Made by a program: the position numbers and the translations under genes. This document shows, piece after piece, positions 4,934 to 46,310 of a stretch of 64,000 nucleotides of DNA (position 1 is the stretch's first letter; the number at the start of each line of letters is the position of its first letter). The notes under the pieces were generated by a model. The model was not told the DNA's origin. It saw nothing but the letters and a program-made list of their open reading frames with translations, and searched no databases. The stretch covers positions 558,001-622,000 of the forward strand of contig NZ_WODC01000001.1 of the NCBI RefSeq assembly GCF_009729555.1, written 5' to 3'. This stretch comes from Pseudodesulfovibrio alkaliphilus (GTDB lineage: Bacteria; Desulfobacterota; Desulfovibrionia; Desulfovibrionales; Desulfovibrionaceae).

Positions 4934-5009
4934 TGGTGGAGACGAAGAGATTTGAACTCTCGACCCCTGCCTTGCGAAGGCAGTGCTCTCCCAGCTGAGC
5001 TACGTCCCC
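4934..5009 (-). tRNA. tRNA-Ala (anticodon CGC)
   Basis: On the minus strand a 76-base cloverleaf can be folded by eye. The acceptor stem starts GGGGACG, the D arm contains GCTCAGCTGGGAGAGC, the anticodon stem CTGCC/GGCAG holds the loop TTCGCAA, the T loop is TTCAAAT, and the 3' CCA is encoded. The loop gives anticodon CGC, which reads GCG (alanine). Position 3-70 is G-U, the alanine identity element. A hairpin terminator follows. Confidence 0.96.
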
Positions 5010-9308: not shown

Positions 9309-9929
9309 ATGATCGGATATCTCAAGGGAACGGTATTGTCCGTGAGCGACAAGGGACTGGTGCTGCTCACTCCAGGCGGAGTGGGCTACGAGGTGGCCGC
9401 GCCCACCTCGGTGCTGGCCCGGCTGCCCGGCCGGGGAGGCGAGGCAGCGCTCTTTGTCCACACCCAGGTGGGCGAAAAGGCCATTGATCTTTTCGGCTTT
9501 CTCGAAAACGACGATCTCGACCTTTTCCGCACCCTCATCTCCATCGACAAACTCGGCCCCAAGAAGGCCCTTGCCATACTCTCCATGTTCGACGCCGGGC
9601 ATCTGCGCGAGATCGCCTGGCGCGAGGACGCCGACACCCTGGCAACGGTGCCGGGCATCGGACCGAAATCCGCCAAGCAGATACTCTGGCACCTCAAGGA
9701 CAAGGTGGACAAACTCGCCCCGGCCCACGCCCCGGCCAAGGGCGAAGGGCCACGCGTCGAAGGAGGACGGGGCGAGTACCTCGACGCCCTTGCGGGCCTC
9801 AAGGGGCTGGGGTATCAGGAGGATGAAGTGAGACCCATGCTGCTGGAAATCTTCGACGCTGAACCAGACCTCGACGCCGCCTCGGCCATCCGCACGGCGC
9901 TGAGGCGCATCGCGGCGGCCCGCTCATGA
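9309..9929 (+). CDS. ruvA: Holliday junction DNA helicase subunit RuvA
   Basis: Tetrameric junction-binding subunit that loads RuvB. 206 residues. Starts [10 protein letters not shown] (OB fold, 1-60). The paired helix-hairpin-helix motifs are at about 70-130, including [11 protein letters not shown] and [12 protein letters not shown], and the flexible linker leads to a C-terminal RuvB-contact domain (about 155-206). The ATG at 9309 follows GGAGG; an upstream in-frame start at 9261 would add 16 atypical residues. Its stop overlaps the ruvB start as ATGA. Confidence 0.96.
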
Positions 9930-34741: not shown

Positions 34742-35061
34742 CACTCGCGCCCGGATAGCCCGGCCGCCCTGCCCGCGGCACCCCTCTGACCACCGAACGG
34801 CAGAATTCGCGAGGGGCGCATGGGTTGTCTTCATTTTTCCCGGACAGCTTTTTTCTCCCACCAGGGAACCGGCTGGAATTATGGCCGAACCTTGGATCAT
34901 TGTGCCGCAAAAGACATACTGCTGTCATTTTTTCCCTCATAAATCAAAGACATTGTGTGCATTTTGTGCCAGACCGTGAGCAAGTGCCAAACCGTTGGCA
35001 AGCCAAAGAGTGCGCCCTAGTGTATTTTTCAAACAACGCACAATACAGTGAGGTCACTCCA
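34742..35061 (+). promoter_or_regulatory. Regulatory gap before fdhE
   Basis: 320 bases between moeA-like and fdhE. The first part has a weak imperfect stem (around 34778-34822) followed by T-rich sequence, a possible terminator. The second part is AT-richer and contains the tandem 18-bp repeats described separately. A TTGGCA inside the second repeat (34995-35000) stands 17 bases from TAGTGT (35018), a weak -35/-10 pair, so a bound protein could act directly on the polymerase site. Confidence 0.5.
34966..35002 (+). repeat. Two tandem 18-bp repeats, candidate operator of fdhE
   Basis: GTGCCAGACCGTGAGCAA (34966-34983) is followed without a gap by GTGCCAAACCGTTGGCAA (34984-35001); 15 of 18 bases agree. 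The second unit contains the palindrome TGCCAA-ACCG-TTGGCA. A third copy of the same pattern lies before the fdhA unit at 37139. The copies end about 60 bases before the fdhE start. Confidence 0.6.
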
Positions 35062-35949
35062 ATGCAATTCAACATGGACAAGGCGACACGCAACCTGGAT
35101 CGAAAACTGATCCAGCTCAGGGGAAAGTCCTATATCTCATCTGAACTGATCGACCTGTTGGACGCAGTGGCCCATCTCCAGTTGGAAGCCCGGACCAAGG
35201 CCCAAGTGGCCCTGCCCCCAGACCGGGAACTGCCCTCGGCAGAAGCCCTGCTCCAAGGAGTGCCCCTGATGACCCGCGAGTGTTTTCCCCATGACCCGGC
35301 CCAGGCCGCCGACCTGCTCGGCAGGCTTGTGGCTCTGCTCGACGCGACGGGCGGCCCCCTGGGCCAAGCGGCCCGAAGCGTGGGCAAGGCCCTGGCCGAC
35401 GGCGAAATGACCCCCGAGGAATTGTTCCGTCGCTACCTGGGCGACGACGCCACCTTTTTCGCCTCCTGGACCGAACGGACCCCCGGTGCGCCCAAGGCCC
35501 TGGCCTTCCTCGCCTCAGCCGCCCTGGGGCCTTCCATTGAGGCAGCGTCAGAGCTGCTGGCTGCGAAGCTCCCGCCGGTCAAGGTGGCGATATCGGGCGA
35601 ATGTCCCGTCTGCGGCAGCCTGCCGCTCATTTCCTCACTCAGGCAAAAAGAGGGCTTCCGCCATGCGGTCTGTTCCTTCTGCCGCCACGACTACCGCATC
35701 CGGCGCATCGCCTGCCCTGTGTGCGGCGAGGAGGACCAGAAAAAGCTGACCTTCTTCACGGTTGACGAGGAGCCCGGCTTCCGCGTCGATGTCTGCGAAA
35801 GCTGCAAGACCTACATCAAGACAATAGATTTCCGCGAGCTGGACCGGATTTCCCTGCCGGTGCTTGACGACCTCGATTCCCTGGCCCTGGACTATGTGGC
35901 CGCGGGGCAGGGATACAGGCGGGCCACGCTGTCCGCGTGGGGATTCTGA
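35062..35949 (+). CDS. fdhE: Formate dehydrogenase accessory protein FdhE
   Basis: Cytoplasmic maturation factor needed for active formate dehydrogenase before Tat export. 295 residues. The C-terminal half carries the rubredoxin-like Cys pairs of FdhE: CPVCGSLPLISSL near 183, CSFCRHDYRIRR near 205, CPVCGEEDQKKL near 220 and CESCKTYIKTIDF near 250. The ATG at 35062 follows GAGG at 35050-35053; the upstream extension of the frame runs through the repeat region and is rejected. The transposase-like gene starts 14 bases after its stop. Confidence 0.93.
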   Translation: MQFNMDKATRNLDRKLIQLRGKSYISSELIDLLDAVAHLQLEARTKAQVALPPDRELPSAEALLQGVPLMTRECFPHDPAQAADLLGRLVALLDATGGPLGQAARSVGKALADGEMTPEELFRRYLGDDATFFASWTERTPGAPKALAFLASAALGPSIEAASELLAAKLPPVKVAISGECPVCGSLPLISSLRQKEGFRHAVCSFCRHDYRIRRIACPVCGEEDQKKLTFFTVDEEPGFRVDVCESCKTYIKTIDFRELDRISLPVLDDLDSLALDYVAAGQGYRRATLSAWGF

Positions 35950-35963
35950 GACAGGAGGCGATC

Positions 35964-36935
35964 ATGGATCACGCAATGCCCGGAACAAAACCGCAGTCGG
36001 CCATGCGGCCCAGACCCGGTGCGCTGGCAGGCGGGGAGCACCCCAGACGTCCGGTTGTGCCCCACACCCCGAAGGCGGCCGGAGACTTCGCCGCGCTGCT
36101 GCGCGACGAGAAACTGGCCCGGGCCTTTCTGCTCGACCTGGCATGGCCAGCGGGCTCCCCCTTCTGTCCGCGTTGCGGCCACAGCAAGGTCTACGCCCTT
36201 TCAGGCGAACGGCTGCGCTGCGCCGACTGCAAATACACCTTCCACCCCTTTTCGGGCCGATGGATAAACAACGGCGCCCTGAGCGCCGCCGAGTGGCTGG
36301 GCCTCGTGGCCCTGTTCGTCGACGAATGCAGTGTCCACCAGATGAAGGAGCGCCTCGGCCTCTCCTACAACACCGTGTACAAGGCCCTCACCGCCATCCG
36401 CTTCGCCATCGTGGCCCACGCCATCGACGCCCGCCAACTGCTCGGCGAGGCCACCGGGCTCGACTCCTACCTCAAAGGCAACCGGCTCACCGGGGGGCCC
36501 CGCGACATGCGCATGGACACCATTCCGGTCTACGGCATCCTTCGGCGCGACGCCATGGTCTTCATTGATTTGGTGCCCGGATTCCAGGCCGAGACCCTTT
36601 TCCACTTTCACATGAACTTCCACCTCAAGCTCATCCGCACCGGCAACCTGGTCTATACCGACCGCTACAAGGAATACGACGCCCTGCTCTTCTGCGGCAA
36701 CGACTCCCTGCCCTACGAGATCATCCGCCGCTACGACGAGCCGCCCCATATCGACGCCAGCGGCGACGAATTCTGGCCCTTTGCCCTGGAGCGCATTCGC
36801 CGATTCAGGGGCATCTCCTGCCAGCGCTTCCCCTTGTATCTCAAGGAACTTGAGTTCCGGTTCAACAACCGGGAGCGGCCCATTGCCGAAATGCTGGCCG
36901 CCTATCTCTGCGCCCTGGTTCCCCAACTAGACTGA
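35964..36935 (+). CDS. IS1595/ISXO2-like transposase-like protein inside the formate dehydrogenase island
   Basis: 323 residues. AGGAGG precedes the ATG by 5 bases. Zinc ribbon with Cys68/Cys71 (FCPRCG) and Cys86/Cys89 (RCADCK), HTH-like segment VHQMKERLGLSYNTVYKAL (about 124-142), then an ISXO2-type DDE domain: Asp167 (GLDSYLKG), Asp233 (VYTDRYKEYD) and an acidic DEFW near 268-271, with the family ending ELEFRFNNRE. The DE pair after the first Asp and the usual NxIE before FW are altered, so activity is doubtful. I see no terminal inverted repeats or target duplication. The tight spacing after fdhE implies cotranscription and a retained, possibly regulatory, role. Confidence 0.75.
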   Translation: MDHAMPGTKPQSAMRPRPGALAGGEHPRRPVVPHTPKAAGDFAALLRDEKLARAFLLDLAWPAGSPFCPRCGHSKVYALSGERLRCADCKYTFHPFSGRWINNGALSAAEWLGLVALFVDECSVHQMKERLGLSYNTVYKALTAIRFAIVAHAIDARQLLGEATGLDSYLKGNRLTGGPRDMRMDTIPVYGILRRDAMVFIDLVPGFQAETLFHFHMNFHLKLIRTGNLVYTDRYKEYDALLFCGNDSLPYEIIRRYDEPPHIDASGDEFWPFALERIRRFRGISCQRFPLYLKELEFRFNNRERPIAEMLAAYLCALVPQLD

Positions 36936-37067
36936 CTTCGGGCCTCAGCAGACCATCTCCCCCTTCTGCCTGCCGCGCCATCAGCCACTGCCCGCGATGC
37001 CCCGCTCCCAGGCCGCGGCCATACTGACGCCTCCCCTTTTGTGCAAAACTCTTGTAAAGAAAAGCAC

Positions 37068-37087
37068 TTATGCCCAAAATGGCATAA
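37068..37087. promoter_or_regulatory. Perfect palindrome TTATGCC-N6-GGCATAA
   Basis: Seven-base arms with a six-base spacer in the 290-base gap before the fdhA unit. The size and spacing fit a dimeric regulator of the CRP/FNR size class, but the arms are not the FNR or HcpR consensus. The TGCC...GGCA core recalls the operator-like repeat before fdhE. Confidence 0.55.
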
Positions 37088-37138
37088 TTGAACCCGCATC
37101 ATTTCAGGCGTCTACGAAAAAATGGCCGAAATAGCAGT

Positions 37139-37157
37139 GTGCCGCACCACGCGCAAG
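37139..37157 (+). promoter_or_regulatory. Third copy of the fdhE-type repeat, before the fdhA unit
   Basis: GTGCCGCACCACGCGCAAG has the pattern GTGCC-NN-ACC-NNNN-GCAAG shared with both units at 34966-35002, in the same orientation. It lies 72 bases before the small ORF at 37229 and 52 bases after the 7-6-7 palindrome. Confidence 0.55.
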
Positions 37158-37228
37158 ACCGATTTCTTTGCCGTTTTTCCACGACTCGCCCATAGGAAAA
37201 GGAGCTTCAAAAAGGGAGAGGTGCGCAC

Positions 37229-37456
37229 ATGCGCGATTCATTCAACCACAAAGCGGTCGCCGGGACGGTGACGCTCCAGCCTTTTTCCGGGCTGGGTTTC
37301 GACGTGTCCGGGGTCCGCGAGGCCACCCGGACCATGACCCTGCGCCGCCCCGACACGGACATGGACCGGCAAACGCCGCCCATGCCCAGCGCCGTGGCGC
37401 GGCCAAGCGGCTACTCGCTCCTCGTGACGCTGTGTCGCGAAATTCGCGGGCGCTGA
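37229..37456 (+). CDS. Possible small leader ORF of the fdhAB operon
   Basis: 75 residues with GGGAGAGG about 9 bases before its ATG, ending 25 bases before fdhA. No signal peptide, no Cys cluster except a single Cys near the end, and no recognised family; composition is Arg/Thr/Pro-rich. It may be a genuine small protein of the operon, a translated leader, or chance. The good ribosome-binding site and position are the only support. Confidence 0.35.
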   Translation: MRDSFNHKAVAGTVTLQPFSGLGFDVSGVREATRTMTLRRPDTDMDRQTPPMPSAVARPSGYSLLVTLCREIRGR

Positions 37457-37481: not shown

Positions 37482-40400
37482 ATGCACACCAACCGAAGAA
37501 ACTTCCTCAAGCTCTCCGCCACGGCGGCCGTTGCCACGGCCTTCGGCGGCCTCGGGCTTGGCTGTACGCCCAAGGCCGAAGCGGTCGACAGGGCGGCGGC
37601 CATGGACCCGAAGTGGAGCAGACAGACCACAAGCATCTGCTGCTACTGCGCGGTGGGCTGCGGGCTCGTGGTCAACACGTCTCTGAAGACCAAACGGGCC
37701 ATCAACGTCGAAGGCGACCCCGACCACCCCATCAACGAAGGAGCACTGTGCGCCAAGGGCGCGTCCATCTGGCAGTTGGCCGAAAACGACCGCCGGCCCG
37801 ACTCGGTTCTCTACCGTGCGCCCTACGCGAACAAATTCAAGAAGGTCTCCCTGGCCTGGGCCCTGGAAAAGATCGCCCACAACGTCAAAAAGGCCCGTGA
37901 CGAAAACTTCACCCATCTCAATTCTCGCGGGCAGGTCGTCAACCGATGCGACAACATCGCCTCCCTCGGTTCGGCAGCCCTGGACAACGAGGAGTGCTGG
38001 GCCTACTCGACCATGCTCCGCAGCCTCGGCCTGGTCTACATAGAGCATCAGGCACGTATCTGACACAGCGCGACTGTTGCGGCTCTGGCAGAGTCGTTCG
38101 GACGCGGCGCGATGACCAATCACTGGATCGACCTGAAGAACAGTGACTGTATTCTCATAATGGGCAGCAACGCTGCCGAAAACCATCCCATCTCCTTCAA
38201 GTGGGTGACTCGCGCCCAGGAACGGGGCGCCACCGTCATCCATGTGGACCCCCGCTTCACCAGGACCTCGGCCAAGGCGGACATGTACGCCCCGTTGCGT
38301 TCCGGTGCAGACATCGCCGTACTCGGCGGTATGATCAAGTACATCCTGGACAACGACCTGATTTTCAAGGAATATGTCCTGGAGTACACCAACGCCTCGT
38401 TCATCGTCGGCGACAAGTACGCCTTTGACAACGGCATCTTCTCTGGCTACGACCGCGAGTCCAGAAGCTACGACCAGTCCAACTGGGCCTTTGCCATGGA
38501 CGAAAACGGCAACCCCAGGAAAGACCGGACCCTTCAGGACCCGCGCTGCGTCTATCAGCTACTCAAGAAGCACTATGCGCGCTACACCCTGGAAAATGTC
38601 GAGACCATCTCCGGCATGACCCGCAAGGATCTCATCAAGTTCTACGAGACCTATGCGGCCACCGGCAAAAAGGACAAGGCCGGAACCATCATGTACGCCA
38701 TGGGCTGGACCCAGCACACCGTGGGCGTGCAGAACATCCGAACCATGGCCATCATCCAGCTGCTGCTGGGCAATGTCGGCATCCCCGGCGGCGGCGTCAA
38801 CGCACTGCGCGGCGAGGCCAACGTCCAGGGATCCACTGACCACGGCCTACTCTACCACATCCTGCCCGGCTACCTGGCCACCCCCCTGGCGGTACACCAG
38901 AGCCTGGCCGACTACAATAAGGCCCTCACTCCGATCTCCAACGATCCCATGTCCGCCAACTGGTGGCAGAACTTCCCCAAGTATTCGGCGTCGCTGCTCA
39001 AGGCCATGTGGATGGACGACGACCCTGCGGTCTCCTTCAACTACCTGCCCAAGCTCGACACCGCCTCGGCGGCCGTCTACTCCTGGCTGAACCTCTTCGA
39101 TAAGATGGACAAGGGCCAGTTCAAGGGGCTCTTCGCCTGGGGGATGAACCCCGCCTGCTCGGGCGCCAACTCCCACAAGACCCGTCAGGCCCTGACCAAG
39201 CTCGACTGGCTGGTCAACGTCAACATCTTCCCCAACGAGACCGGCTCGTTCTGGGAAGGACCGGACATGGACCCCTCCAAGATCAAGACCGAGGTCTTCT
39301 TCCTGCCCTGCTCGGTGTCCATCGAGAAGGAAGGCTCTGTCAGCAACTCCGGCCGCTGGATGCAGTGGCGCTACCAGGGCCCTGACGCACCCCACGGCTT
39401 CAAGCCCGATGGCGACCTGATGTACGAGCTGATGCACGAGATCCAGGCCCTGTACAAGAAGGAGGGCGGCGTCTATCCAGACCCCGTGCTGCGGTTCAAC
39501 CTTAAGGGATGGGCCACCAACGGCGTCTTCGACCCGCACAAGACGGCCAAGCTGATCAACGGCCACTTCACCCGCGATGTGGAGATCGGCGGCAAGCTCT
39601 ACAAGAAGGGCACCCAGGTGCCCAGCTTCGCCCTGCTCCAGGACGACGGCTCCACCTGCTCGGGCAACTGGCTGTACTGCAACTCCTACACGGATCAGGG
39701 CAACATGGCCGCACGGCGCAGCCTGGCCCAGACCCCGGAGCAGGAAAAGCTCGGCCTTTTCCCCAACTACACATGGTGCTGGCCGGTCAACCGCCGCATC
39801 CTCTACAACCGCGCCTCCGTGGACCCCACCGGCAAGCCCTGGAACCCGGAGCTTCCCCTCATCCAGTGGGACGCCATCAACAAGAAATGGGTGGGCGACG
39901 TACCCGACGGCGGCTGGGCCCCCGGCGAACGGCATCCCTTCATCATGACCCGGTTCGGCTTTGGCCAGATATACGGTCCCGGCCGGGCCGACGGCCCCTT
40001 CCCGGAATACTACGAGCCCCTGGAGTGCCCGGTGAACTCGCACCCGTTCTCCACCACTCTGCACAACCCCACGGCCATCTCCTACGCCGACGAGGACAAG
40101 GCCGTGTGCGATCCCCGGTATCCCTTCGTGGGCACCACCTATCGCGTCACCGAGCACTGGCAGACCGGCCTCATGACCCGTAACCAGGAATGGCTGGTGG
40201 AGATGGAACCCCAGATGTTCGTGGAGATGGGCGAGGAGCTGGCCGCGCTGCGGGGCATCAGAAACGGCGAAAAGGTCATCGTGGAGAGTGTGCGCGGCTC
40301 GGTCTGGGCCAAGGCCATGGTCACCAAGCGCATCAAGCCCTTCGACATCCAGGGCACAGTCATCCATCAGGTGGGCCTGCCCTGGCACTATGGCTGGACC

Positions 40401-40511
40401 TGGCCAAAGGACGGCGGCGACTCGGCCAATATCCTGACTCCGTCCGTGGGCGATCCCAATACCGGCATCCCCGAAACCAAGGCCTTCATGGTCAACGTCC
40501 GCAAGGCGTAA
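37482..40511 (+). CDS. fdhA: Selenocysteine formate dehydrogenase, catalytic alpha subunit
   Basis: Oxidises formate to CO2 in the periplasm, or the reverse, at a Mo or W bis-MGD centre. 1009 residues with an in-frame UGA at 38061-38063 read as selenocysteine, residue 194, within HQARI-U-HSATVAAL, the active-site motif of this family. Reading stops there without recoding, and the same frame continues to 40511. Tat signal RRNFLK at residues 5-10; [4Fe-4S] ligands Cys53, Cys56, Cys60 and Cys90. The length matches Desulfovibrio FdhA. AGGAGG precedes the ATG. fdhB follows 12 bases later. The selenocysteine machinery (selA, selB, selC) is not in this window. Confidence 0.97.
38061..38096 (+). promoter_or_regulatory. 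UGA selenocysteine codon with bacterial SECIS hairpin
   Basis: Right after the UGA the message can fold: CGACT (38071-38075) pairs with AGTCG (38092-38096), and TGC (38078-38080) with GCA (38088-38090), leaving a bulge and the apical loop GGCTCTG. The E. coli fdhF SECIS loop, which SelB binds, is GGUCUG-like. Distance from UGA to stem and loop sequence fit a bacterial SECIS. Confidence 0.88.
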
Positions 40512-40523
40512 AGGAGGAATGAA

Positions 40524-41249
40524 ATGAGTAAGACCTTCTTCATCGACCTGACCAAGTGTACGGCCTGCCGGGGTTGCCAGGTTGCCTGCAAGCAATGGAA
40601 AAAACTCCCGGCCGAAAAGACCGAGAACTGGGGCTCGCGCCAGAATCCAAAGGACCTCTCGGGCGTCACCCTCAAGCTGGTCCGGTTCACCGAAGTGGAG
40701 ACCGACGGCAAGCTTCAGTGGCTCTTCTACCCCGAGCAGTGCCGCCACTGCATCGAGCCGCCCTGCATCGACGCCATGACCGTGCCCGGCTCCATCGTCC
40801 ACGACCAGGAAACCGGAGCCGTGATCTACACCAGCCTCACGGCCAAGGAACCCAACAAGGAGGCCTTTGCCACCAGCTGTCCCTACGACATCCCGCGCAT
40901 CAACGAGGAGACCGGGATGGTGGTCAAATGCGACATGTGCAATGACCGCGTCAAGATGGGCATGCTGCCCGCCTGTGTGCAGACATGCCCCACCGGGGCC
41001 ATGAACTTCGGCGAGCGCGAGGACATGCTCGAACTGGCTGAAAAGCACCTTGAAGCGGCCCAGGCGAGGTATCCCGACGCGGAACTGGTGGACGAGTACA
41101 CGGTTCGGGTCATCTATCTGGTCCAGACCAGCCCGGCCAGCTACCACGAGTATCTTGAGGCGGACGCCTCGTCCATCCGGCGCGGCCCGCTCACCAGGAA
41201 GCAGTTCCTGGCCAAGCTGGCCTCGCCCCTCAAGCGCATGAACGGCTAA
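40524..41249 (+). CDS. fdhB: Formate dehydrogenase iron-sulfur beta subunit
   Basis: Electron-transfer partner of FdhA. 241 residues with 12 conserved Cys in ferredoxin-like groups: KCTACRGCQVACKQW (12-22), QCRHCIEPPC (about 73-82), SCPYD, KCDMCNDRVKMG and ACVQTCPTG (about 132-160). That is enough for three [4Fe-4S] clusters, as in the D. gigas enzyme. It has no signal peptide and should leave the cell with FdhA through Tat. AAGGAGG precedes the ATG. No membrane or cytochrome subunit follows, so this is the soluble FdhAB type, probably passing electrons to a periplasmic cytochrome c3 encoded elsewhere. Confidence 0.96.
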   Translation: MSKTFFIDLTKCTACRGCQVACKQWKKLPAEKTENWGSRQNPKDLSGVTLKLVRFTEVETDGKLQWLFYPEQCRHCIEPPCIDAMTVPGSIVHDQETGAVIYTSLTAKEPNKEAFATSCPYDIPRINEETGMVVKCDMCNDRVKMGMLPACVQTCPTGAMNFGEREDMLELAEKHLEAAQARYPDAELVDEYTVRVIYLVQTSPASYHEYLEADASSIRRGPLTRKQFLAKLASPLKRMNG

Positions 41250-41288: not shown

Positions 41289-41471
41289 ACAGCCTTGCAA
41301 GATAGAACACCTCCGCATGCCCGCCGCTTCGGACCTGGCGGCGTCGGCCACGGAGCGTCAAGGGCCCCGGCCATTGCTATTGTGCCGGGGCTCATTGTAT
41401 TGTGACCCGAAACGTCCGCCCGGCCAGCGACCATGGACCGCCCAAAGAAACCGCTTCAAGGAACCACGCCC

Positions 41472-42017
41472 ATGAGAACCCCCCTGCTGACGACCATGGC
41501 TCTGCTGATGCTGTACGCCCCAGTGGCTGCCACGGCCCTCGCCCAGCAGCCGCGCCCCTTTCCCGACCTGACCCTGAACGGAACACGCCTGAGCGAGCAG
41601 GCCGCCTACCTCGGGGTTGCCGACGCCCCTTTCCGGCTTACGCAAATCAAGGCCGAGTACCTCTTCATTGAGGCTTACAGCCTCTATTGTCCGGCATGTC
41701 AGCGCGACGCACCTGCCTTAAACGAACTGCACAGGCGCATCGAAACCACGGAGCTTGGCGCCAGGGTCCGCTTGATCGGACTCGGCCTGGGCAATACCAG
41801 CGCCGAAACCGACCACTACCGGGACAAGTATGCGGTGCCCTTCCCCCTGTTTGAAGACGGGGAGTACCAGATACACAGGGAACTGGGCGAGCCGGTGGCC
41901 CCCACCTATTACATCGTGCGCCTGGAAGGCGCTGCGGCCACCATCCTGTACGAGCGAGAGGGGCCGCTGGAGGCGGACATTTTCGACACCCTCACGCGGC
42001 TGGTGCAAGGCGGATAA
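41472..42017 (+). CDS. Secreted TlpA-like thioredoxin-fold protein
   Basis: 181 residues. Signal peptide about 1-26 (hydrophobic core LLTTMALLMLYAPVAATA). Thioredoxin-fold with redox pair CPAC in YSLYCPACQRDAP near 77, and cis-Pro region EPVAPTYYIV near 140. So a periplasmic thiol-disulfide protein, probably reductive or scaffolding in cytochrome or metalloprotein maturation; the pair CPAC differs from CGPC. AAGGA lies 8 bases before the ATG. It follows fdhAB on the same strand but behind two hairpins, so cotranscription is uncertain. Confidence 0.82.
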   Translation: MRTPLLTTMALLMLYAPVAATALAQQPRPFPDLTLNGTRLSEQAAYLGVADAPFRLTQIKAEYLFIEAYSLYCPACQRDAPALNELHRRIETTELGARVRLIGLGLGNTSAETDHYRDKYAVPFPLFEDGEYQIHRELGEPVAPTYYIVRLEGAAATILYEREGPLEADIFDTLTRLVQGG

Positions 42018-42073: not shown

Positions 42074-42820
42074 TCATCCGCCGCGGCGGGTCTGGGCATC
42101 AAGGGCCGAGGCCTCGGACCGATAGAGTTCCGCCAGCCTGGTGATGCCCACGGACTCGAAGACCGCACGAAAGTTGTCCGAGAGCCCGGCAAGAACCACG
42201 CGCACCCCGGTCTCGTGGCATTGGCGCAGCAGGTCGGTCAGGCCGGAGAGTCCGGCGCCGTTGATGGAGGCGTTCTCGTCGAAGCTCATCAGGATCAATC
42301 CCTTGTCCAGCCGACGGGCCTCGGCCAGCCGCTCTGTCAAGCGAGGCACCGTGTTGCCGGTGATGTTGCCGCGCACACGGATCACCACCGCATCACCCTG
42401 CACCTGAAGTTCGATCTGCTCGTCCTCTCGCTTGGCGATGGCCAAGCGCTCCCCGGCTCGGGAAAGGGCCAGTTCCAGGGCCTCGCGCCGAAGGGGTTTG
42501 TTTATGAAGTCCGTGGCGTCGAGGTTCAGCGCCTGGATGGCCAGATCCATGTCGCCGTGGCCGGTGATGACCACCACCTCGGCCATGGGGTTGATCTTCT
42601 TTATCTCCTTGAGCACCTCAATGCCGTCCATGACCGGCATCTTGATGTCTGTGAGTACCAGCGATGGCTTTTCCCGCATGAACAGCTCAAGCCCTTCCTG
42701 GCCGTTCTCTGCCTGCAGCACATCATACCCCATGGCGTTGAGCAGCAGGGAAAACATTTTCAATGTCGGCCGTTCGTCGTCGATGATCAGTATGGTTTCC
42801 TTCACGATGGATTCCTTCAT
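42074..42820 (-). CDS. Response regulator with STAS output domain
   Basis: 248 residues. Receiver at 5-125: acidic pair LIIDDERP, phospho-Asp in LVLTDIKMPVMDG near 58, Thr in VVVITGHGD, Lys in DFINKPLRR. The C-terminal part (about 140-235) has the anti-sigma antagonist-like STAS pattern VVIRVRGNITGNTV and SINGAGLSGLTDLL. Ser in SINGAG sits where SpoIIAA-type proteins are phosphorylated. REC-STAS suggests output through partner switching rather than DNA binding. The start overlaps the kinase stop by 4 bases. Confidence 0.9.
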   Translation of the reverse strand: MKESIVKETILIIDDERPTLKMFSLLLNAMGYDVLQAENGQEGLELFMREKPSLVLTDIKMPVMDGIEVLKEIKKINPMAEVVVITGHGDMDLAIQALNLDATDFINKPLRREALELALSRAGERLAIAKREDEQIELQVQGDAVVIRVRGNITGNTVPRLTERLAEARRLDKGLILMSFDENASINGAGLSGLTDLLRQCHETGVRVVLAGLSDNFRAVFESVGITRLAELYRSEASALDAQTRRGG

Positions 42821-44823
42821 TGTCTGTTCACGCCCTTGGCCGCGGGGAACTGCATCCGAAAGGCGGCCCCCCTGCCCTTTTCACTGCGAATGCGGATGTC
42901 TCCGCCGTAATCCTTGACGATGCCGTAGGTGATGGCCAGCCCGAGGCCCATGCCCTGGCCCGCCTCCTTGGTGGTGTAGAAGGGCTCGAATATCTTCTCG
43001 CGATCCTCCTCATCGATGCCCGAGCCGGTATCCTCCACCTCGATGAACACGGTGGAGTCCTCGGCTCCGGTACGGATGGTGATGCGGCGGCGGGAGGCGT
43101 CGTCATGGGGCGAGGCGTTGTCGTTGATGGCGTCGCGGGCGTTGGCCACGAGATTGAAGACCACTTGCTGAAGCCTGTTGGAGTGGGCCATGACCGGCGG
43201 AAGCCCGTCTCCCAGCTCCAGGTCGAAGGCGATGTTGTCCAACTCGAACTGGCGTCTGAGCATGGAGAGCACTGCCAGCACCGGCTGGTTGACATCCACC
43301 CGTTCCTCCATGAAGTCGGACTTGCGGCCAAAGGAGCGCAGGGTGTTGATGATCTCGGCCGCCCGGTCCACCTGGGCCGAGATTTCACGCACCACCTCCA
43401 TGAAGTGCTCCTTGGGCACTTCGGTGTTCTCCTCCCCCATCAGATAGAGGAAGTCGCTGCCCATCTTGATGGCGTTGAGCGGCTGATTGATCTCGTGGGC
43501 CACGCCTGCGCTCATTTCTCCCAGCGATTTCATCTTGCTCGCCTGAATGAGCTGGGCGTCCTTCTCGATCATTTCGGTGATGTCTGTCACCGCGATGATG
43601 ATGGCGTGATGCCCGCGATACGAGATGGGACAGGCGTGCATGTTGACGAAAAACGGCTCGTTGCCCCGTTTATAGTGGATCTGCTTGGGAAAATAGACGC
43701 AGCCGCTGCCGCCCTCGGAGAAGAATGCCAGGCACTGCTCATTGTGATCCGGGCCGAGTTCGACGAAACGCATGCCATGCAGGGTTTCGCGGGAATATCC
43801 GTACAACTCCACGGCCCGAGGGTTGGCATCGCGTATCTCGCCGGTCTCGCAGTCCACCACGAAGATGGGATCTGGCCCGGAGTCGAACAGGGAGCGGTAC
43901 TTCTCCTCGGATTCGCGCAGACGGCGGCGATAGAGCTTGATGGACCAGACCATGTTCCTGAAGGAGTCGGCCAGCTGAACCACCTCGTCGCCCTCGTGCT
44001 TGCGGTAAAAGGTGCAGTTGGCGCACTTGCGGTACTCCTCGCCCGGGCTGGCCGTGCCGCGGGCCTGATCGAAATGCCAGCACGGCAGATCGGTGTTGTT
44101 GAAGGCCGGGCAGCGCGAGGCGTCCCAGTCCTCGTCCGGCCCGAGCTTGAGCGGAATGTCGAAATTTCCCCGGCTGATCTCGTCAGAGAGCCGGGTCAGA
44201 TCGGACACGGGCCGGGTGATGTAGCGCGTCAGCCATGAGCTGAGGAAGATGGTGATGATGATGACGCCAGAAATGAAGCCGAGAAAGGCCACGCGCAACT
44301 TGCCCACCAGAGCGTCGATGTGGCTCTTGTTCAACCCCACATGGACCGTGCCGATGCGGTAGAGCCCTTCGTTGATGGCTGCGGCCAGATCATAGACAGG
44401 TTCGCCGTCGAGATCGAGGAGCTTGATGGAATCCTGGGCCCCTGGCGAAAGCCGGTTGGTCAGCAGGTTCTCGGGCAGGGGCCGGGTCAGGGTGTGGGCC
44501 AGGACCTCGCCCGTCTGATTCTCGATGAAGATGTACGAGACCAGGTGCTTGCGCTGATGCAGACGGGTTTCATCAAAGATCAGGGCCAGCAGCTGGGGCA
44601 CATCGTTGTCCAGGATGTGGGAGCCGCCCCGCTCGGCCACGGAATAGGCGATGGCCTCGCCGCGCATCTCCAGCTCATGGGTCAGGGAGTTGACCAGGAT
44701 GTAGCGGGCCACGAAGGCAATGGCCACGCTGATGAACATGATGGCGATGAGCATGGAGAAAAGGATCTTCTCCCTGAGCCCCAGCCTGGAAAAATGGTGG
44801 GAGAGACGCTTGCCGATGGTCAC
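42817..44823 (-). CDS. Membrane sensor histidine kinase with Cys cluster between HAMP and PAS
   Basis: 668 residues. Membrane helix about 20-43, periplasmic sensor about 44-180, second helix about 183-205, HAMP about 205-250. Then a Cys-rich insertion (RCPAFNNTDLPCWHFD and RKCANCTFYRK, about 240-280), resembling the CW-type Cys clusters found in deltaproteobacterial signalling proteins. PAS about 310-430, HisKA with His in GVAHEINQPLNAIKMG near 450, HATPase with EVEDTGSGIDEED and GMGLGLAI. It overlaps both the binding-protein gene upstream and the STAS regulator downstream by 4 bases, so ligand binding, phosphorylation and output form one unit. Confidence 0.92.
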   Translation of the reverse strand: MTIGKRLSHHFSRLGLREKILFSMLIAIMFISVAIAFVARYILVNSLTHELEMRGEAIAYSVAERGGSHILDNDVPQLLALIFDETRLHQRKHLVSYIFIENQTGEVLAHTLTRPLPENLLTNRLSPGAQDSIKLLDLDGEPVYDLAAAINEGLYRIGTVHVGLNKSHIDALVGKLRVAFLGFISGVIIITIFLSSWLTRYITRPVSDLTRLSDEISRGNFDIPLKLGPDEDWDASRCPAFNNTDLPCWHFDQARGTASPGEEYRKCANCTFYRKHEGDEVVQLADSFRNMVWSIKLYRRRLRESEEKYRSLFDSGPDPIFVVDCETGEIRDANPRAVELYGYSRETLHGMRFVELGPDHNEQCLAFFSEGGSGCVYFPKQIHYKRGNEPFFVNMHACPISYRGHHAIIIAVTDITEMIEKDAQLIQASKMKSLGEMSAGVAHEINQPLNAIKMGSDFLYLMGEENTEVPKEHFMEVVREISAQVDRAAEIINTLRSFGRKSDFMEERVDVNQPVLAVLSMLRRQFELDNIAFDLELGDGLPPVMAHSNRLQQVVFNLVANARDAINDNASPHDDASRRRITIRTGAEDSTVFIEVEDTGSGIDEEDREKIFEPFYTTKEAGQGMGLGLAITYGIVKDYGGDIRIRSEKGRGAAFRMQFPAAKGVNRQ

Positions 44824-46046
44824 TGCGTTTCCTCCCGCCGCCCTGCCAGCCCCTGCCAGTCGAGCAGGGGCACGAAGCGTCCGCGCTCAAGGCGGGTGAA
44901 ATATACCTTTTCGAGCCCCTGCCTGTCGTCCGGGCCGTAGGTGATGGACAGATCCGGCCCGAGTTCGTAATTGCGCAGGGATTCTATGGCCGCGATGAGC
45001 CCTTCGCGGGTCAGGTCACGTCCTGCCCGCTTGAGCCCCTCGACCATGATGCGCGCATTGAGGAACCCCTCAAGCCCAACGAAACTCGGCGTGTCGTCGG
45101 GATAATAGCGGGCCAGGAGGCGCACGTACTGCGAGGCGGCATCGTCGGCCCCGTCCGGTCCGGCCACGGGCTGTGGCACCACCTGGGACATGATCACCTC
45201 GGACTGGATCTCGGGCCCGAGTCTGCGGGCCAGCTCCTCGGCCCCCACAAAGGAAACATTGTAGAAGATGGGGTCGAACCCGGCCTCAAGGGCCACGGAA
45301 ATGAACCGGGCGCAGGCGTCGTAGGTGCCGACCATAACCACGGCCTCGGCCCCGGAATGGCGGATTTTATCCATGCCCTCCGCCACATTGAGGGTTCCCC
45401 GGATATAGGAGCCTCGGGCCACGGGCTCCAGGTCGTACTGCTTGAGTGCCAGCTCGGTGCCGATGAGTCCGTCAAATCCGTAGGCGTCGTACTGGTAGAA
45501 GACCGCGATGCGGTCAATGCCGAGGGCCTCGACCAAATGGCGCACCGCCGCCTCGGTCTCCTGGTAGTAGGAGGCGCGGATGTTGACCAGATAGGGGTTG
45601 AAAGGCTGGCGCAGGGCATTGGCCCCGGTGAACATGCCCACCAGGGGGATGCCTGCCTCCTCCACCAGGGGCAGCACCTTGATGGTGGTCGGCGTGCCCA
45701 CATAGCAGAACAGGGCGAAGACATCTCCCGAGATGATGAGTTGTTGGGTGTTCATCAGGCAGCGGGGCGGATCGTAGGAATCGTCGTAGGCAACTATGCG
45801 TATCTTGCGCCCGTGTATTCCCCCGCTTTCGTTGACATGGCGGATATACGCCTCGGCCCCGCGCAGGGTCTGGGTTCCCAGGTATCCCGCGTGGCCGGTC
45901 AGAGCCAGGGAGGAGCCCAATCGGATTTCGTCGGCCGACACGCCCGGGGCGCCGCTTTGCACCAAGCCGGACTCGTCCGCGCTCCCGCAGCCCATAAGCG
46001 CGGCCGACAAAAGAATGAACACCACTGCCCGCAACGTCTGGCCCAT
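44820..46046 (-). CDS. Branched-chain amino-acid type ABC binding lipoprotein, probably a sensor subunit
   Basis: 408 residues from ATG 46046 behind a G-rich run; an in-frame TTG at 46079 is less likely. Lipoprotein signal with lipobox LMGC near residue 19-20. Type I periplasmic binding fold of the LivJ/UrtA family: IRLGSSLALTGHAGYLGTQTLRGAEAYIRHVNESGG near the N-terminus and SFVGLEGFLNARIMVEGLKRAG near the C-terminus. No permease or ATPase gene is present. The 4-base overlap with the kinase gene indicates that it delivers a ligand signal to that kinase rather than to a transporter. Ligand unknown. Confidence 0.9.
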   Translation of the reverse strand: MGQTLRAVVFILLSAALMGCGSADESGLVQSGAPGVSADEIRLGSSLALTGHAGYLGTQTLRGAEAYIRHVNESGGIHGRKIRIVAYDDSYDPPRCLMNTQQLIISGDVFALFCYVGTPTTIKVLPLVEEAGIPLVGMFTGANALRQPFNPYLVNIRASYYQETEAAVRHLVEALGIDRIAVFYQYDAYGFDGLIGTELALKQYDLEPVARGSYIRGTLNVAEGMDKIRHSGAEAVVMVGTYDACARFISVALEAGFDPIFYNVSFVGAEELARRLGPEIQSEVIMSQVVPQPVAGPDGADDAASQYVRLLARYYPDDTPSFVGLEGFLNARIMVEGLKRAGRDLTREGLIAAIESLRNYELGPDLSITYGPDDRQGLEKVYFTRLERGRFVPLLDWQGLAGRREETQ

Positions 46047-46310
46047 GAACGCCCCCCCGGAGTTTCGCGCATTTTCCAATTGCGGAACATGCCTTGTCCA
46101 TGATTACTGATCCTGGGGCAAAAACACAAGCAACCGTCTTTTGCCCACGGTTCAGTACAATCGACCTGGCCAACGCGAGGGCACTAGCCAAAACGGTCCA
46201 TTGCGGATATAGAAAGCACAGCCCGCAAACACCCTTTACGGGCGGGACCACGGCGAAAGCCCGAGCGGACGGCTCACCTCGTCAAGCCGGACTACACAGG
46301 AGGAAAACAC

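Follow-up and report, generated by a model that had tools for sequence, protein, structure and literature searches.

Formate is a central currency of syntrophy and of sulfate reduction, and there is demand for the tungsten or selenium formate dehydrogenases in CO2 reduction. Among sulfate reducers, the TunR family comprises tungstate regulators that derive from phage integrases, carry a metal-binding domain and act on modABC. Here we describe a 19-base-pair (bp) box, the A-box, in the formate dehydrogenase promoters of Pseudodesulfovibrio alkaliphilus and its relatives, together with a candidate protein for reading it. This protein, named TnpR in this analysis, resembles IS1595 transposases, and its gene lies between fdhE and fdhA. 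The DNA analysed, hereafter the window, is a stretch of 64,000 nucleotides (contig NZ_WODC01000001.1, positions 558,001 to 622,000, assembly GCF_009729555.1), and positions are counted from its first letter. Like TunR, TnpR would be a regulator of these bacteria whose DNA-binding domain derives from a recombinase, but TunR is of the tyrosine recombinase class, has a metal-binding domain and targets modABC. A further parallel is TldR, derived from transposon-encoded TnpB, where a transposon protein has also become a bacterial transcription factor; TldR is RNA-guided and phage-encoded (PMC13418256), whereas TnpR would bind DNA directly. Searches of open-licence papers named no regulator of these fdh genes, and searches on domesticated transposases and fdh regulation in the same kind of papers returned nothing on this system.

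With about even confidence, we propose that the A-box is the site of a dedicated activator in a class of fdh promoters, that this activator is most likely TnpR, and that a separate palindrome provides a second input.

Results and discussion

A conserved box at a fixed distance from the -35 hexamer

The first-pass annotation of the window had noted three matches in one orientation to the strict pattern GTGCC-N2-ACC-N4-GCAAG, two before fdhE and one before fdhA. All three were recovered with 0 mismatches (34966-34984, 34984-35002 and 37139-37157, all on the + strand), and they were the only exact matches in the whole genome (3,224,509 bases, 29 contigs), for which the reversed control gave 0. 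The fdhE copies are in tandem as described, but rather than lying exactly head to tail they share one base, with a period of 18. The features of the two promoters and the genes between them are as follows.

34900-34919, no strand: degenerate palindrome TTGTGCCGCAAAAGACATAC before fdhE (12 of 14 positions), supported by its spacing in fdhE loci
34966-34984, + strand: first of the two A-box copies (copy 1) at the fdhE promoter, 29 bp upstream of the -35
34984-35002, + strand: second A-box copy (copy 2) at the fdhE promoter, which overlaps its -35
34995-35000, + strand: predicted -35 hexamer TTGGCA of fdhE (TTGGC in 29 of 29 fdhE loci)
35018-35023, + strand: predicted -10 hexamer TAGTGT of fdhE
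35062-35949, + strand: fdhE (Pfam FdhE domains; NCBIfam FdhE 82.2, under the cut-off of 187.65)
35964-36935, + strand: TnpR, IS1595-transposase-like, candidate A-box binder
37041-37059, + strand: A-box upstream of fdhA, 27 bp before the palindrome
37068-37087, no strand: palindrome TTATGCC-N6-GGCATAA of the fdhA promoter, with ModE-like architecture
37139-37157, + strand: downstream A-box at the fdhA promoter, 29 bp upstream of the -35
37168-37173, + strand: predicted -35 hexamer TTGCCG of fdhA
37191-37196, + strand: predicted -10 hexamer CATAGG of fdhA (CATAAN in relatives)

Orthologues of fdhE were found in 31 of the 36 genomes of the genus (E of 1.2e-90 or better), and matches to the N-terminus of the fdhA product in all 36. 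Upstream DNA was compared for the best 30 fdhE and the best 30 fdhA loci, setting aside one fdhE locus cut off by the contig start (L041) and two fdhA loci (L048, cut; L071, in which no palindrome or boxes were found). The strict consensus proved over-fitted to its three sites: the element shared with relatives is less strict in sequence and recognized by its position. We use A-box for this relaxed form, GTGYNARANC-N6-AAG, which begins 29 bp before the -35 hexamer.

All 29 fdhE promoters read GTGYCARANC-N6-AAG, 10 bp, TTGGC(A/G), 17-18 bp and a TA-containing -10-like hexamer, and the distance from box start to -35 start was 29 bp in every one. Copy 1 holds 24.8 bits over its 19 columns, and copy 2 was detected by pattern in 15 of 30 fdhE loci. 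The fdhA promoters (n=28) have two boxes each, one on either side of a palindrome. The upstream box precedes the palindrome by exactly 27 bp in 28 of 28 loci, and the downstream box lies 70 or 71 bp past the palindrome start, also in 28 of 28 (a shift search favoured 69 for L058). By position the downstream box is 29 bp before the -35 in all 28, with TTG found there in 26 and CATAAN 17 bp beyond the -35 in 25. The copy at 37139 is the positional equivalent of fdhE copy 1, though poor by sequence. A weight matrix built without the P. alkaliphilus sites scored 28.0 at 34984 and 25.2 at 34966, while 37139 fell below the listing limit of 9, so that support for this copy comes from its fixed position in relatives. 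To the three copies noted at first must be added the one at 37041-37059, GTGCAAAACTCTTGTAAAG, which had been missed; its matrix score of 14.5 is within chance (20 simulated windows gave up to 19.3). The same box is also present at a second formate dehydrogenase operon (FDH2), the P. alkaliphilus copy being at C2:29872 on the minus strand.

A site at fixed spacing from the -35, here 29 bp from one start to the other (29 fdhE and 28 fdhA promoters), is the pattern expected of a bacterial activator with a class II or near-class II site, and judged from these alignments the box is very probably an activator-type site of fdh promoters. The promoter class would consist of the A-box, 10 bp, a -35 hexamer (TTGGCA or TTGNNN), 17-18 bp and a -10 hexamer, with the box centre near -55. 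A sigma-54 promoter was considered and rejected, as reading both strands by eye revealed no GG-N10-GC element at the motif. An Rfam scan of the window matched only a distant tRNA (4937-5009) and no structured RNA at the motif.

The box together with the -35 marks formate dehydrogenase genes

Raw counts of the strict and the relaxed pattern were not above those of the reversed controls, which means that the letters alone do not mark the box. With 2 mismatches tolerated, the strict pattern occurs 5 times in the window, within chance (shuffle mean 3.26), and across the 36 genus genomes it gave 11 exact matches (in 9 genomes) against 14 for the reversed control. The relaxed box alone gave 5 matches in the P. 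alkaliphilus genome against 7 for its control: two at fdhE, one upstream of FDH2 and two inside other open reading frames (C3, C17). These totals speak against the proposal. Outside P. alkaliphilus, four strict matches lie directly upstream of fdhE (G011, G013, G015, G020), one upstream of a relocated transposase-like gene (G009) and one adjoining the formate dehydrogenase genes of G027; those in G002 and G022 are included in the total of 11 without an assigned location.

The box plus TTG at +29, on the other hand, matched 45 times in the 36 genomes versus 7 times for the reversed control, and 41 of the 45 lie within 5 kilobases (kb) of an fdhA or fdhE match. This concentration is partly built in for 31 of the 41 because the fdhE and fdhA promoters had themselves supplied the pattern; the independent part consists of nine matches upstream of FDH2 operons and one in G027. 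The remaining four, whose genes were named by eye from translated open reading frames, precede a dehydratase-like gene pair (G012, G014) and thioredoxin-like genes (G024), or lie in G028, where the match (G028:C5) has no evident formate link. The expectation that matches would gather near fdhE, fdhA, mob and sel genes was borne out for fdhE and fdhA; sel genes were absent from the placements of the 45 matches, and mob genes appeared only as neighbours in the same cluster. Neither many unrelated matches nor a loss of conservation, either of which had been named as grounds for abandoning the motif, was found, though the strict letters themselves are not conserved. With its position conserved and its matches concentrated at fdh genes, the idea of a regulatory site shared by the fdhE and fdhA promoters holds up, and as far as promoter comparison can tell this is a genuine and conserved box of activator type, belonging to a formate dehydrogenase regulon.

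Some box-type promoters are of interest in themselves. The dehydratase-like gene pair (L243, 5170, in G014; L245, 4396, in G012) may be another gene set under this regulator. In G024 (L244, 1733) the box-type promoter stands upstream of two thioredoxin-like genes related to the gene at 41433-42017 of the window, and in G033 (L251, 3446) a second box-like match, GTGTCAAACCGTTGTTAAG, points away from FDH2 and lies upstream of another periplasmic-type gene.

TnpR, a transposase-like protein fixed beside fdhE

The first-pass annotation made no link between the motif and the transposase-like gene between fdhE and fdhA. The catalytic signature of the IS1595 family is DDN plus lysine. TnpR resembles the transposases of this family (ISXO2-like) in its DDE and zinc-ribbon domains (Pfam PF12762, 61.1 bits, cut-off 27; PF12760, 42.9 bits, cut-off 25.4) and in aligning with the multi-copy IS1595 elements of the genus. 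It differs from them in being fixed beside fdhE and mostly single-copy, in falling below the NCBIfam cut-off for the IS1595 equivalog-domain (46.4 bits, cut-off 75) and in not keeping the catalytic columns: when 25 diverse TnpR rows were set against those elements, the first D was kept in 10, the second D in 19, the N in none and the K in 3. The gene directly follows fdhE in 29 of 30 loci, the thirtieth running off its contig, with 68-84% identity to the P. alkaliphilus protein. It is present in 35 of the 36 genus genomes, as a single copy in 33 of these and as two copies in G009 and G028, and more widely in 134 of 247 genomes of the family and 25 of its 44 genera, some genomes of other genera having two or three matches. 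From this distribution TnpR looks like a fixed host gene rather than a mobile element.

A structure model of TnpR (mean predicted local distance difference test, pLDDT, 82.9; residues 1-39 poor) gave no Foldseek match at E of 0.001 or below and no VIA-align match with a Z of 5 or more. The rows returned were mostly helix-turn-helix domains, including those of the Tc3 and Mos1 transposases, with no catalytic domain prominent, so a transposase fold is not shown by structure. An origin of the box in transposon ends was also tried and rejected. Five IS1016-like element ends of the genus were not significantly similar to it (p 0.13-0.79 over 19 columns and 0.05-0.53 over the first 10; ten tests), and their by-eye likeness to the box is not evidence.

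Evidence for and against TnpR as the reader of the box

A first line linking TnpR and the box comes from relocated tnpR genes. In the four genus genomes examined that are without an orthologous fdhE cluster, the box is found upstream of tnpR: at both copies in G009 and at one each in G027, G016 and G028. TTGGCA follows at exactly 29 bp in three of these five (the second copy in G009, G027 and G016). An fdh operon lies about 5 kb from the relocated tnpR of G027 and G016, and for the second tnpR copy of G009 no fdhA or fdhE was present within the 10 kb examined.

A second line comes from other genera, scored for box plus -35 with a promoter model that was trained on the genus and includes the -35 hexamer. 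Where tnpR is present, 13 loci were taken (12 of the 99 other-genus genomes with the gene, plus locus L184), and of their 18 fdh promoters 14 reached a p of 0.005 or below. In the set without tnpR (8 loci from 6 other-genus genomes, of which G064 is 64% and G067 72% complete; G023 was left out), 0 of 8 did so, the lowest p being 0.148. In G002 (L183), which is counted apart because it is placed in the same genus as P. alkaliphilus, both fdh promoters reached the same threshold. These comparisons suggest that TnpR is, on balance, the probable binder of the box.

A number of observations pull the other way. Four other-genus promoters miss the p of 0.005 despite the presence of tnpR. Immediately upstream of tnpR itself, none of the 13 other-genus loci has a scoring box (best 4.4), so that autoregulation through the box is not a general feature. 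The assembly of G023 (82% complete, 470 contigs) contains boxes at both fdhA and FDH2 but yielded no tnpR, and the second tnpR copy of G028 is preceded by a degenerate box only, recognized by eye. The VIA-align matches of TnpR were weak, the best being those of its helix-turn-helix region, with a Z of 4.9 to a response regulator and of 4.7 to the Tc3 transposase. Our confidence in the proposal as a whole, and in its fullest form given below, is lowered because the reversed controls and the other-genus tnpR promoters weigh against it.

The strongest competing explanation, less probable than TnpR itself but a serious one, is that another activator reads the box, for instance an AraC-like protein or a molybdenum/tungsten-responsive member of the TaoR family, and that TnpR is a co-inherited passenger or a maturation protein. 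It would account for the tnpR genes of other genera that have no box before them, and a maturation role would suit a gene that shares its operon with the maturation gene fdhE; moreover, TaoR is reported to regulate tungsten enzymes in Desulfovibrio (PMC11980592). It is harder to reconcile with the boxes upstream of the relocated tnpR genes, with the absence of the box from all eight fdhA promoters of genomes without tnpR, and with the lack of aor or tup genes among the 45 genus-wide matches, as far as these were placed.

A separate palindrome in the same promoters

The fdh promoters contain a second element, the palindrome TTATGYC-N6-GRCATAA, with 56 exact sites in 32 of the 36 genus genomes versus 1 for the reversed pattern; 42 of the 56 are within 5 kb of fdhA or fdhE. 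In fdhE loci it lies 64-68 bp before box copy 1 (29 of 29). At FDH2 it begins 61-63 bp past the box, just beyond the -10, a figure taken from the five genomes in which box and palindrome both match exactly (P. alkaliphilus, G010, G011, G021, G023), and would there cover the start site, like the operator of a repressor. Further sites, with genes named by eye, precede tungsten-type aldehyde oxidoreductases (L107, L115), molybdenum-type aldehyde oxidoreductases with a MoeA-like gene (L103, L106, L109, L114) and aldehyde dehydrogenases (L102, L111, L116); those in L102 are at 9809 and 11782. The palindrome is thus an element separate from the box, and its targets are mostly a molybdenum/tungsten enzyme set. 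The supply of these metals, put forward at first as a plausible input to the box, is a better guess for the palindrome, which the first-pass annotation did not list.

Behind the palindrome, the FDH2 operon includes a gene for a single-domain ModE-like protein, and the single-domain product of L102:7740-8126 scored 56.4 bits against TIGR00637 (cut-off 98.5). A single-domain ModE-like protein is a candidate binder of the palindrome, with a TaoR-type factor as the alternative. The E. coli ModE consensus is given as ATCGNTATATA-N6-TATATANCGAT in PMC545781. ModE operators and the palindrome have in common the N6 spacing and half-sites that start with TAT, but the half-sites read TATGYC in the palindrome and TATATA in ModE operators, and of ModE the candidate protein has just the helix-turn-helix. 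In the same source, a 2004 study, single-domain ModE genes are reported in two Desulfovibrio species and D. psychrophila, a different inverted repeat is predicted before the mod operons of both Desulfovibrio species, and the mechanism of molybdenum sensing is left open by its authors. The palindrome would be a second input to the fdh promoters, probably linked to molybdenum/tungsten through the ModE-like protein.

With two elements so close together, the 19-bp unit could also be a composite, in which a ModE-like protein acts at the palindrome, alongside ordinary promoter elements, and the box is a spacer or UP-type element. The nearly fixed distance between palindrome and box would agree with this, as would the -35 forming half of copy 2. 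Such a composite is nevertheless improbable in view of the boxes upstream of relocated tnpR genes and of those at FDH2, which has its palindrome past the -10 and none at the usual upstream position, and the information in copy 1 exceeds what a spacer would keep. Chance similarity of the three sequences, for which the window count with mismatches, the reversed controls and the weak 37139 copy might be cited, has virtually no probability left and is refuted by the three exact matches in 3.22 megabases, all at this locus, the fixed positions in 29 and 28 loci and the 45 versus 7 matches to the promoter pattern.

Genes downstream of the fdhA promoter and possible signalling partners

The remaining features of the locus are listed below.

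37229-37456, + strand: small conserved open reading frame (75 amino acids, C-terminal REIRGR) that separates the promoter from fdhA and is also present in the upstream regions of relatives
37482-40511, + strand: fdhA, with an in-frame TGA at 38061-38063 (domain search)
40524-41249, + strand: fdhB, iron-sulfur subunit
41433-42017, + strand: thioredoxin-like (AhpC/TSA) protein
42074-42820, - strand: response regulator with STAS domain
42817-44823, - strand: sensor kinase (sCache, HAMP, PAS, HisKA), co-inherited with TnpR
44820-46079, - strand: periplasmic binding protein (Peripla_BP_6), before the kinase

The small open reading frame had no Pfam or NCBIfam match and could be a small accessory protein or a leader peptide; the in-frame TGA of fdhA probably encodes selenocysteine. 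The periplasmic binding protein, kinase and STAS response regulator form an operon (42074-46079) that faces the fdh operon, and the matrix scan of the window scored no box before it. Among the 247 family genomes, TnpR and the kinase were both present in 132, TnpR alone in 2, the kinase alone in 2 and neither in 111, the kinase counts including some partial matches (e.g. G044, G048, G049, G084, G088). A Fisher value for this co-occurrence is not a fair probability because the genomes are related. In the 132 genomes with both, the two genes are within 15 kb of each other in 88, further apart on one contig in 23 and on different contigs in 21. A Pfam domain search found no DNA-binding domain in the STAS response regulator, which was counted toward TnpR as the output, and the periplasmic protein, kinase and response regulator may feed into TnpR.

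Conclusions

In the proposed mechanism, TnpR, which retains a zinc ribbon and a predicted helix-turn-helix alongside degenerate catalytic residues, would activate fdhE-tnpR, the operon that contains its own gene, as well as fdhA and FDH2. The fullest form of the proposal is a tentative one that we regard as possible but less likely than its parts: a catalytically dead IS1595-type transposase may serve as the DNA-binding output of a chain of periplasmic protein, kinase and STAS regulator, switching on fdh genes across this family of sulfate reducers through the 19-bp box. The sites, the promoters and one candidate protein can now be named, which makes the question directly testable. Among bacterial gene switches a transposase-derived reader of the box would be unusual and, if TnpR is indeed the regulator, a bacterial DDE-type transposase would have been turned into a transcription factor whose sites, targets and possible signalling partner all lie in a single locus.

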